From positions 248,001 to 312,000 of the forward strand of contig NZ_BCSV01000001.1 in the NCBI RefSeq assembly GCF_001571045.1: DNA of 64,000 nucleotides. The letters are read 5' to 3'. The notes beneath the pieces are model-generated. The model was not told where the DNA came from, did not search any database, and saw only the letters and a list, made by a program, of their open reading frames with translations. Position numbers and translations under genes: made by a program. The DNA comes from Curtobacterium ammoniigenes NBRC 101786 (GTDB lineage Bacteria; Actinomycetota; Actinomycetes; Actinomycetales; Microbacteriaceae). The stretch's first letter is position 1; each line of letters starts with the position of its first letter. Positions 41,349 through 48,497 of the stretch are shown here, piece by piece.

Positions 41349-41362
41349 TAGGCTTGACCCTC
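41349..41362 (+). promoter_or_regulatory. Leaderless-type promoter of ychF
   Basis: TAGGCT at 41349-41354 ends eight bases before the GTG at 41363, which gives the family start MALTIAIVGLPNVGK. Confidence 0.5.
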
Positions 41363-42436
41363 GTGGCTCTCACCATCGCGATCGTCGGTCTCCCCAATGT
41401 CGGCAAGTCAACGCTGTTCAACGCGTTGACGAAGAACCAGGTGCTGGCGGCGAACTATCCGTTCGCGACCATCGAGCCGAACGTGGGCGTTGTGAACCTG
41501 CCCGACCCGCGCCTCCAGGTGTTGGCCGACCTCTTTCATTCCGAGAAGGTGATGCCCGCTCCGGTGTCATTCGTAGACATCGCCGGAATCGTGAGAGGCG
41601 CGAGCGAGGGAGAGGGGCTCGGAAACAAGTTCCTCGCGAACATCCGCGAGGCCGACGCGATCGCCCAGGTCGTGCGCGGGTTCACGGATGACGACGTCGT
41701 GCACGTTGCCGGCGCCGTTTCACCGAAAGACGATCTCGAGGTCATCAACACAGAACTGATCCTCGCCGACATCGAGACGATCGACCGGGCGCTCCCGCGC
41801 TACGAAAAGGGTGTCAAGCTCAAGCAGATCGAACCCGCTGTTCTCGATGCCGCTCGGGAGGCCCGTGCCGCCCTGGAACGCGGAACCCTCCTGTCCGCCA
41901 CGTCGATCGATCTGACACCGATCCGCGAACTCGGTCTGCTCACCGCGAAGCCGTTCATCTTCGTCTTCAACGTGGACGAATCGATCCTCACCGATGTCGC
42001 GCGAAAGCAGGCGCTCGCAGATCTCGTCGCGCCCGCGCAAGCCGTCTTCCTCGACGCGAAAATCGAGTCCGAGCTCATCGACCTCGCCCCGGAGGAAGCG
42101 CAGGAACTCCTCGAAGCAACCGGGCAGCCCGAATCGGGGCTCGACCAGCTGGCGCGGATCGGATTCGCGACCCTGGGCCTCCAGACATTCCTCACTGCGG
42201 GGCCAAAGGAATCGCGCGCCTGGACGATCCACCAGGGCTGGAAGGCGCCGCAGGCCGCGGGTGTCATCCACACCGACTTCGAAAAGGGCTTCATCAAGGC
42301 AGAGGTCATCTCGTTCGACGATCTCGTCGCCGCCGGGTCTGTCGCTGAAGCCCGTTCGCGCGGTGTAGCCCGTATCGAAGGCAAGGACTACGTGATGCAG
42401 GACGGCGACGTGGTGGAGTTCCGCTTCAACAACTGA
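41363..42436 (+). CDS. ychF: Redox-regulated ATPase YchF
   Basis: This universal Obg-family P-loop protein prefers ATP, binds ribosomes and is linked to oxidative stress. The 357-residue product has the P-loop GLPNVGKSTLFNAL, the G3 region FVDIAGIVRGASEGEGLGN, the non-canonical FNVDES in the place of NKxD, and a C-terminal TGS domain ending DVVEFRFNN. The final 30 bp (42407-42436) are repeated twice downstream, flanking two foreign-looking genes, as if this gene's 3' end were an insertion site. Confidence 0.97.
   Translation: MALTIAIVGLPNVGKSTLFNALTKNQVLAANYPFATIEPNVGVVNLPDPRLQVLADLFHSEKVMPAPVSFVDIAGIVRGASEGEGLGNKFLANIREADAIAQVVRGFTDDDVVHVAGAVSPKDDLEVINTELILADIETIDRALPRYEKGVKLKQIEPAVLDAAREARAALERGTLLSATSIDLTPIRELGLLTAKPFIFVFNVDESILTDVARKQALADLVAPAQAVFLDAKIESELIDLAPEEAQELLEATGQPESGLDQLARIGFATLGLQTFLTAGPKESRAWTIHQGWKAPQAAGVIHTDFEKGFIKAEVISFDDLVAAGSVAEARSRGVARIEGKDYVMQDGDVVEFRFNN
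42407..42436 (+). repeat. ychF 3'-end repeat, copy 1
   Basis: This is the native end of ychF, encoding DVVEFRFNN and the stop. 21 bp (42407-42427) recur in copy 2 at 42956, and 25 bp (42412-42436) recur in copy 3 at 43430. Confidence 0.95.
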
Positions 42437-42492
42437 CGTAGCGCTCCGAAGGGCCGGTGCGGTCAGCTCAGAACTCGTGCATGGTTGAGCGC

Positions 42493-42936
42493 GTGAGCGA
42501 TGAACCGGCAAGGCCGCTGCTGCATGCGTTGCTGAGCGACTACATAATTGCTGACGGTGATGTTGAGCAGCCGGTTGTCGGAGCGGTGCTGCATCGGCTG
42601 GCGCTTCGCGTGGACTCGCACGATCAAAGCCGGGGCTCGCAACGGACGCCCGAGCTCGTGACCGGCGTCGTTACGTGGGCGCGTTACAACCGGGCTAACA
42701 ACTTATTCGAAGCCGTGGTGGACGCCGGTGTCTATCGTGTTCTTACGGAAGTAAAAGGTCGTGGTCCGGGGTGGTCAGTCGGCTCAGTTGTCGATGTCCA
42801 GGGAGTGCTCGTGAGCGTGGGGCCTTACGAGTTCGAGGCGTTCGGGCTTCCGGACGTGCGGCAGGACTGGTTAGTTGTCTCTTCGCACCAAGAGGAACTG
42901 GGCGACGGCTACGAGTTGGAGATTCAGCCGTTGTAG
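42493..42936 (+). CDS. Cassette gene 1: unrecognised protein
   Basis: The 147-residue product resembles no family I know. It opens MSDEPARPLLHALLSDY, is acidic overall, and its second half is beta-rich (VVDAGVYRVLTEVKG, VVDVQGVLVSVGPYEF), suggesting an OB- or barrel-like fold. Three sampled 60-bp lines are 57-58 percent GC, clearly below neighbours. GTG 42493 is chosen because it lies 86 bp after repeat copy 1, exactly as the next cassette gene lies 86 bp after copy 2, in matching TTGAGnGCGTGAGCGA context. Its TAG stop starts the 42-bp cassette-end element. An in-frame ATG at 42481 is the alternative start. Confidence 0.7.
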   Translation: MSDEPARPLLHALLSDYIIADGDVEQPVVGAVLHRLALRVDSHDQSRGSQRTPELVTGVVTWARYNRANNLFEAVVDAGVYRVLTEVKGRGPGWSVGSVVDVQGVLVSVGPYEFEAFGLPDVRQDWLVVSSHQEELGDGYELEIQPL

Positions 42937-42985
42937 TCATGTCCGAATCCATCGGGACGTGGTGGAGTTCCGCTTCTCGCGTTGA
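42935..42985 (+). repeat. Cassette-end element with ychF 3'-end repeat, copy 2
   Basis: From the last two bases of the cassette gene 1 stop codon, 42935-42976 aligns to 43404-43445 at 35 of 42 bases. Its right part (42956-42976) is identical to the end of ychF. Read in the ychF frame it encodes DVVEFRFSR and a stop (42985). Confidence 0.9.
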
Positions 42986-43041
42986 CATGGCGTTCTCATA
43001 GGTTCCTTCTAGCGCACCGGGTTTCGGGCACAGTTGAGGGC

Positions 43042-43404
43042 GTGAGCGAAGAGAACCGGCAGGGCTTCGATGGCGAGGCTGAGTGGGCGTCGCGAGATTT
43101 GGAACTGCTACATGACGCGGTGCTCGACGAGTTGCGTGTGTGGAGCGAGGTTGGCGTATCCGAGGAAGCGCTAGCTAGGCTCGCGTGGGCGGTGACAACG
43201 CGCATTGATTACGCCTTCGACGTGCGTTGGTCGCCAGACTGGGTAAGGCCAGGCGACCCCCACTCCTGGCGAGACGCGCAAGGCTGGCACGCGCTATGCA
43301 ACGGATGCCTAGTCGAAAGCCCGCCCTGCGCGACCAGGGATGACGCCTTCAGATGGTTTGGGAGCCACCTGGACCAAGCGCATGCCGGAAGCGCGACGAC
43401 GTGA
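43042..43404 (+). CDS. Cassette gene 2: small Cys/His protein
   Basis: The 120-residue product is unrecognised. The N-terminal 60 residues are helical and acidic (MSEENRQGF, LELLHDAVLDELRVW). The C-terminal part contains WHALCNGCLVES with CxxC (residues 86 and 89), another Cys at 96, and H-x4-H at 109/114, a plausible zinc site. Sampled lines are 60-65 percent GC. GTG 43042 is chosen by the same 86-bp distance from repeat copy 2 and shared leader. The TGA stop lies at the start of the cassette-end element. Frame-open codons back to 42982 exist but lack support. Confidence 0.7.
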   Translation: MSEENRQGFDGEAEWASRDLELLHDAVLDELRVWSEVGVSEEALARLAWAVTTRIDYAFDVRWSPDWVRPGDPHSWRDAQGWHALCNGCLVESPPCATRDDAFRWFGSHLDQAHAGSATT

Positions 43405-43454
43405 GTCACGTCCGAATCTGTCGCAATGCGGTGGAGTTCCGCTTCAACAACTGA
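43404..43454 (+). repeat. Cassette-end element with ychF 3'-end repeat, copy 3
   Basis: 43430-43454 is identical to the last 25 bp of ychF, including the stop, and encodes VEFRFNN. The left part, 43404-43429, matches the element after cassette gene 1. Copies 2 and 3 are 469 bp apart, copies 1 and 2 are 549 bp apart. Confidence 0.92.
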
Positions 43455-48234: not shown

Positions 48235-48261
48235 ACACGTGAATATCGGGCCGTTCATCCC

Positions 48262-48442
48262 CCGCGGGAGAGTCCGTCGAACGCGACGGGCACCGAAGGA
48301 GCAATCCCCCCGACAATCTCTCAGGTCGAACGACCGCGAGGGCCAGGCCACTCTGAAAAGCAGGACGCCCAGACGTCCTCGCCCACGGTGAAAATCGCAC
48401 GCTCCATCCGCGGTGAAACTCTCAGGCCCATGACAGAGGGGG
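48262..48442 (+). promoter_or_regulatory. Tandem glycine riboswitch
   Basis: Aptamer 1 runs from about 48265 (GGGAGAGT) through CACCGAAGGAGCAA (48291-48304) to ATCTCTCAGG near 48325. Aptamer 2 begins near CCACTCTGAAAAGC (48348), has a shortened core CCCACGGTGAAAA, and ends with AACTCTCAGG followed by GACAGAGGGGG near 48442. The layout is that of the actinobacterial tandem glycine riboswitches that turn on the glycine cleavage genes. gcvT follows 55 bp later. Confidence 0.92.
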
Positions 48443-48497
48443 AGTCTCTCGCATCCGGCATCGCCGGACATCCGCGTTGCCTGAGGAGCACTCCGCT

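Follow-up and report, generated by a model that had tools for sequence, protein, structure and literature searches.

A repeat array behind ychF

Downstream of ychF in the window (the whole 64-kb stretch of DNA analysed here), the 3' end of the gene recurs twice, each copy following a small gene. Are these units mobile single-gene cassettes that use the end of a coding gene as attachment site, as an earlier note on this sequence proposed, and if so, which kind of recombinase would move them? The host gene was identified by TIGR00092 (415.5 bits vs a cut-off of 279.2) and by PF06071. The core GTGGTGGAGTTCCGCTTC was found on the + strand at 42410, 42959 and 43428, the last copy with one mismatch, and no further copies were detected at up to three mismatches on both strands of the window. 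The features of the region are the following:

41354..42436, + strand: ychF (redox-regulated ATPase YchF), host gene of the attachment site (TIGR00092, PF06071)
42389..42438, + strand: ychF-proximal attachment site, core observed at 42410-42427, axis between 42413 and 42414
42428..42976, + strand: cassette 1, 549-bp period, from the repeat spacing
42493..42936, + strand: cargo gene 1, 147 aa, GTG start, without family match in the family searches
42937..42976, + strand: second site, left arm 42937-42958, core 42959-42976 (arm p=0.00016 when the model excludes its genome; motif at position 19)
42977..43445, + strand: cassette 2, 469-bp period, from the repeat spacing
43042..43404, + strand: cargo gene 2, 120 aa, GTG start, with relatives in other genomes of the genus that form the C-terminal portion of a longer protein
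43406..43445, + strand: third site, left arm 43406-43427, core 43428-43445 (arm p=0.00017 when the model excludes its genome; motif at position 19)

The limits of the proximal site are predicted from proposed 25-bp half-sites, a length taken from PMC3783163. Most of the geometry described in the earlier note was reproduced: the same unit lengths were measured, the 42-bp element at 42935 aligned to that at 43404 with 35/42 identical bases, both small genes start with GTGAGCGA 86 bp past 42407 and 42956, respectively, and the three repeats read in the ychF frame as FRFNN, FRFSR and FRFNN, each followed by a stop codon. An alternative upstream start of cargo gene 1, at 42457, is also open. The GC content of the units (60.7% and 62.7%) is below that of the window (67.4%) and places them at the 1st and 5th percentile among stretches of 500 bp. 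One detail of the note was not reproduced: the GC content of gene 1 is 61.1% vs the 57-58% given there for sampled lines.

Gene 1 was present in one of the 129 genomes searched, the window's own, and the outcome that would have spoken against the cassette reading, the same two genes in all relatives, was thus absent. Eleven further genomes of the genus have a match to gene 2 (44-51%), and a single weak, partial one was found elsewhere; in the six of the eleven where the match is on the contig of ychF, it is located 186-204 kb from that gene. In the seven loci read, gene 2 corresponds to the C-terminal end of a longer reading frame, and in the alignment HxxCNxCL and HxxxxH are invariant, from which one might guess a metal-binding module. 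Neither cargo gene gave a PADLOC match, nor did the two proteins match phage and plasmid records in a protein search. The predicted structure of gene 1 was worthless (mean pLDDT 39.8), while a search with the structure model of gene 2 returned nothing at E<=0.001. Further along the window, at 48255-48443, there are two adjacent glycine riboswitch aptamers.

Inserts and empty sites in related genomes

For the genus, ychF and up to ~14 kb downstream (less at contig ends) were collected from 66 genomes, adding up to 897 kb. A search for the core of each respective genome, allowing up to three mismatches, gave 8 copies on the ychF strand and 0 on the opposite strand, and the reversed pattern gave 0 matches on either strand. 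Two of the eight copies are the window's, one (G043) lies in a more extensive duplication of ychF sequence, and that of G040 is doubtful. Extra core copies with more mismatches were seen in G024 and G025, and a decayed one in G060. Altogether, cassette-type or LSR (large serine recombinase) inserts were found at ychF in 9 of the 66 genomes (G000, G024, G025, G045, G048, G054, G057, G060 and G061). As the earlier note had suggested checking, the genes between copies of the same repeat differ from one genome to another. G057 has an Abi_2/AbiD gene, G045 a minus-strand gene of 465 aa, G061 a gene of 77 aa, and G024 and G025 share a LON substrate-binding gene. The unit of G054 measures 4.2 kb, and G048, which is Curtobacterium sp. 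ZW137, of the same genus as the window, carries a serine-integrase element.

Relatives without the unit also exist. The sequence beyond the distal repeat of G054 matches that of G055 (88%) and G041 (84%) from ~15-25 nt past the ychF end, so these two represent the site without the unit. In G025 an alignment of the empty-site type was not clean past ychF. A further case comes from another genus, where an 817-bp cassette follows ychF in G346 and G378 carries the same cassette (94%; its copy matches the MazE and PIN families), plus a 7-kb serine-integrase element located cleanly between ychF and the older cassette. Once this element is removed, G378 aligns to G346 at 96.9% over the join, the ychF flank being 95.8% identical. 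Taken together, the differing genes and the empty sites in these comparisons favour the cassette reading of the window's units. A different kind of repeat was observed in G043 (L031), where a second copy of the last 105-114 ychF codons, 83-91% identical, is located ~12.3 kb after ychF and closes an island that opens with a broken tyrosine-integrase frame beside ychF.

The coding frame of the host gene is kept by most of these repeats. The ychF frame was closed within four codons in 37/39 proximal and 69/84 distal repeats; at random positions, a stop follows within five codons in 8.5% of cases. Decay was noted in several of the distal repeats. Repeats that are now distant from ychF still read FRFNV or FRFNN followed by a stop, as if each cassette had once adjoined ychF. 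Beside the cassettes of three other loci (L153 and L178 in G392, L181 in G337) ychF ends in FRFGSTSTSKG and a stop, a longer C-terminus than usual.

Distribution and cargo of the units

At the family level, at least 22 of 398 genomes contain two or more same-strand core copies within ~8 kb, a lower bound obtained with the exact 16-base core and a degenerate pattern. Within the fetched stretches there are four units in G192 and three in each of G416, G085, G128 and G392; G261 probably has five, over two stretches, and the array of G434 appears to be split over two contigs. Four opposite-strand core-like matches were found in the fetched family stretches with the looser pattern (<=2 mismatches). 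A search extended to 386 genomes of the order added 14 in which same-strand pairs occur within 12 kb. One of these belongs to the window's family and the remaining 13 to seven other families (f6, f7, f9, f10, f12, f14 and f18). The gene ychF is present in nine of the 14 stretches and was not seen in the other five (L364, L369, L370, L371 and L373), which start some 1.5-1.8 kb ahead of the first core. Arms that score on the cassette model (see below) were found in 12 of the 14, the exceptions being G462 and G782, so the support comes from six of the seven other families.

The median length of 53 family units (leaving out G040, G024 and G346) was 1151 bp, and 39 of them are <=1.7 kb. We scanned against Pfam 50 cargo proteins chosen by eye and codon composition, and 19 had no match at E<=0.001. 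The others included Abi_2 (three), AAA_21 (two, once beside an HNH protein), PDDEXK_4, MazE and PIN, HTH_3 (four), AAA_33/zeta-toxin-like proteins (two), glyoxalase (two), NUDIX (two) and single others. PADLOC, run on 18 of the 50 in addition to the window's two, gave AbiD (three), AbiLi, PtuA/PDC-M01 A and B, PDC-S26, a TIR-type effector match and one marginal PDC-S32. A convincing gene is lacking in some units, with examples in G148, G128 and G210, and the permease in one G210 unit may be ordinary chromosome. The same cargo was found in different genera or families: a PIN-like pair (by eye) is common to G617 (f14) and G810 (f1), with 77% identity over 729 nt, and an AraC-like gene (by eye) to G688 (f7) and G510 (f9), with 78% over 964 nt. 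HTH_3 cassette genes recur in G416, G085, G261, G434 and G640, and the LON gene of G024/G025 is shared with G345 at 90%.

Architecture of the sites

Across 59 cassette-end copies, conservation extends 20 bases to the left of the core. A weight matrix was built from 54 cassette arms, excluding LSR elements and leaving out G040 (weak core and poor arm) as well as G024 and G346 (duplicates of the G025 and G378 units). With each genome left out in turn, 46/54 training arms scored at p<0.05 and 36/54 at p<0.001, 8/54 missing p<0.05; the window's two arms are at p=0.00016 and 0.00017. The arms of LSR elements scored on this cassette model in 12/12 cases at p<0.05 (10/12 at p<0.001), and out-of-family arms in 24/26 (23/26 at p<0.001), L367 and L374 not scoring. 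The left flank of ychF itself also scores (37/37 at p<0.05, 20/37 at p<0.001) and carries the motif described next, so the likeness among arms is partly a likeness to ychF.

This motif, [AG]AC.T, was picked post hoc, after the sites had been seen. At left position 19 from the axis it occurs in 40% of 82 cassette ends, 58% of 12 LSR ends and 54% of 37 ychF flanks, and at right position 14 in 59%, 67% and 57%, respectively, while at any other position it does not exceed 7%. Both distal sites of the window have it at left position 19. PMC3783163, on A118-family integration sites, describes a 5-bp shift between attP and attB half-sites, and by analogy the offset between left position 19 and right position 14 is a shift of this kind. 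The putative attP halves of the G048 element are palindromic in 16/20 bases, a value reached by 0 of the 19,641 other centres in the locus (maximum 14). This element has such a palindromic site of two half-sites, while in the cassettes the left half alone is attP-like. One unit with a single gene (G298), on a contig other than that of its ychF, has 19/20 bases in common with the right half of G048.

Large serine recombinases at the end of ychF

The earlier note had found no recombinase in view. For the window's array this holds; the relatives point to an LSR and not to an integron-type tyrosine integrase. The G048 element opens with an LSR frame 20 bp past ychF, and that of G378 ends with one beside its distal repeat. 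The LSRs of both, and that of the viral contig L129, contain PF00239 and PF07508; the cassettes have neither. Among 77 loci of named genomes with a related LSR, 15 besides G048, from Corynebacterium, Actinotignum, Varibaculum and Arcanobacterium, have the ychF end 36-42 bp ahead of the match. Two viral contigs as well as Sinomonas, Mycolicibacterium and Xylanimonas have a ychF-type site on the opposite strand, at 62-77 bp upstream of where the LSR match begins. Adjacency to ychF was assessed for all 139 LSR loci and the presence of the site for 53 of them. The LSRs beside ychF in L197-L207 are nearly identical across Corynebacterium, Actinotignum, Varibaculum and Arcanobacterium, which suggests a recently spread element. 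In L129 a ychF-type site was observed at 2582-2599, between a tyrosine integrase and the large serine recombinase.

In a tree of 101 LSRs the site was found on 25 rows, comprising 7/7 of one clade, 15/17 of another and three singles, and required 6 label changes vs 22.4 in shuffles, a figure that near-copies help. The three rows apart from the two clades (L227, L229 and L236) may be chance matches of the permissive pattern, which is also the only one under which the site was found in L328.

Within the family, an LSR match at E<=1e-40 (scoring up to four candidates per genome) was obtained in 70 of 398 genomes, and the site was located 39-63 bp from the LSR start in 6 of the 30 family LSR loci read, all six within the best nine. 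Among the 22 array-bearing genomes, seven have such a match and 15 do not; three of the seven were read, and the LSR is at ychF in G378 and elsewhere in G146 and G338. The window genome has one PF00239 protein and four PF00589 proteins, and no LSR of the ychF-site family at E<=1e-40 among the up to four candidates scored.

A model for the movement of the cassettes

We consider it probable, from the comparison of sequences, that the units are non-autonomous gene cassettes, that visiting LSRs recombine them at ychF, and that each insertion restores the YchF C-terminus. What was observed are the repeats, precise presence and absence, varied cargo, arrays, cassettes found across families, LSRs at the site and common half-sites. 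When circular, as we infer it to be at some stage, each cassette would consist of one gene and one joined recombination site with an attP-like left half and a right half that imitates the ychF end. An LSR of a ychF-specific clade, carried in by a phage or an island, would act in trans and recombine the joined site with the 3' end of ychF, with the crossover predicted inside GGTGGAGTTCCG. Because the right half imitates the end of the gene, insertion would rebuild both the C-terminus and a site beside ychF, presumably again a working attB, and cassettes could pile up. For the window genome and for the 15 array genomes without an LSR match the enzyme would always have to come from elsewhere. Other findings also count against the model: the likeness of the arms to ychF itself, the training arms that miss p<0.05, the presence of the post hoc motif in just 40% of the cassette left halves, the use of the same gene end by tyrosine elements, the decayed distal repeats and the units in which no gene is convincing.

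A wider reading, to which we would give slightly less than an even chance, is that of a serine-recombinase counterpart of the integron. The 3' end of ychF may be the chromosomal capture site across the actinobacterial order Micrococcales for a shared pool of small gene cassettes, with a hybrid attP/attB that rebuilds the site on entry, and these would be traded by roving LSRs of phages and islands with no resident integrase.

Alternative explanations

The units might instead be remnants of LSR phages or islands at ychF, reduced to a gene or two and spread by homologous recombination through the ychF flanks. Full LSR elements at the same site, the decay of some repeats and the lack of an LSR in most array genomes at the threshold used would all agree with this. 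We nevertheless regard it as unlikely, as the units are discrete, retain both ends in arrays and are mostly short (the 39 of 53 at <=1.7 kb), and the same unit appears in different families. A phage-type tyrosine integrase as the mover seems to us more doubtful still. A tyrosine integrase was matched after ychF in eight flanks of the genus (three of them partial), the inverted CGGAAC-8-GTTCCG arms would suit such an enzyme too, and in Mulchroom, a Streptomyces satellite phage, a 30-base match to the ychF end (L132, 7344-7373; 93%), likely its attP, is located in the gap beside a tyrosine integrase. However, the two readable repeats of tyrosine elements are AGTTCCGCTTCAACAACT without GTGGTGG, that is, the same gene end in another register than that of the cassettes, and it is the ends of the LSR elements that resemble the cassette ends.

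That these are true integron cassettes, of an integron not recognised as such, is very improbable, and membership of integrons was rejected. The arrays do consist of units with one gene, though not in every case, and a recombination site each, and their toxin-antitoxin-like and unknown cargo is as in integrons. Yet no integron integrase (IntI) is present in the window's array, and in the IntI profile test three tyrosine recombinases (two of the four PF00589 proteins of the window genome and one protein of a viral contig) reached at best 46.6 vs a cut-off of 265 bits. Five stretches of cassette end or ychF end had no unusual, attC-like single-strand fold (z from -0.90 to +1.05). Slippage can generate short direct repeats, and tandem duplication was accordingly considered; it was rejected and we give it next to no credence, given the clean strand controls, the arms conserved outside the ychF-derived core, the recurrence in many genera, the cassettes common to different families and the empty sites.

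Comparison with known systems and significance

Integrons are the textbook example of how single genes can be stored and shuffled. Their cassettes are small, mostly carry one gene, end in a recombination site and are lined up in arrays. The LSR-moved cassettes that we propose at ychF are similar in this respect, in a cargo rich in unknowns and toxin-antitoxin-like genes and, in one case (G378), in the arrival of new material beside a fixed site. Unlike in integrons, the attachment site is in the end of a coding gene, and neither IntI nor an attC-like fold was found. Elements of phages and islands with an LSR also integrate in gene ends, and resemble the inserts at ychF in site architecture and, as regards the LSR elements there, in the LSR at the element end, but the cassettes have no recombinase and their right half is ychF-like.

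The SCC and enterococcus cassette chromosome elements (CcrAB) are, according to PMC6222049, inserted by large serine recombinases at the 3' region of rlmH, a conserved housekeeping gene, with direct repeats and highly variable cargo. They share with the ychF units the 3' location in such a gene, the direct repeats and the variable cargo, and insertion by an LSR is what we propose for the latter; here, in contrast, the target is ychF and not the rlmH 3' end, the typical unit carries no recombinase and just one gene or a few, and several units often stand in an array. The LSRs of G048 and G378 were far below the cut-offs for CcrA, CcrB and CcrC (best 64.5 vs 900 bits). A pneumococcal prophage also integrates beside ychF, but upstream, at an unrelated 14-bp sequence, and the accessible parts of PMC6375853 and PMC8637289 report no cassettes. 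In titles and beginnings of abstracts of the open-access literature we found no ychF gene-cassette system, so the novelty is provisional.

If the proposed model is true, the hybrid site makes a testable claim on how serine recombinases choose sites and direction. Actinobacteria could then be searched for defence genes, toxin-antitoxin genes and unknowns at a predictable address behind ychF. With serine recombinases and the end of a coding gene, this would be a second cassette system, and the cassette array would be a solution that arose more than once.
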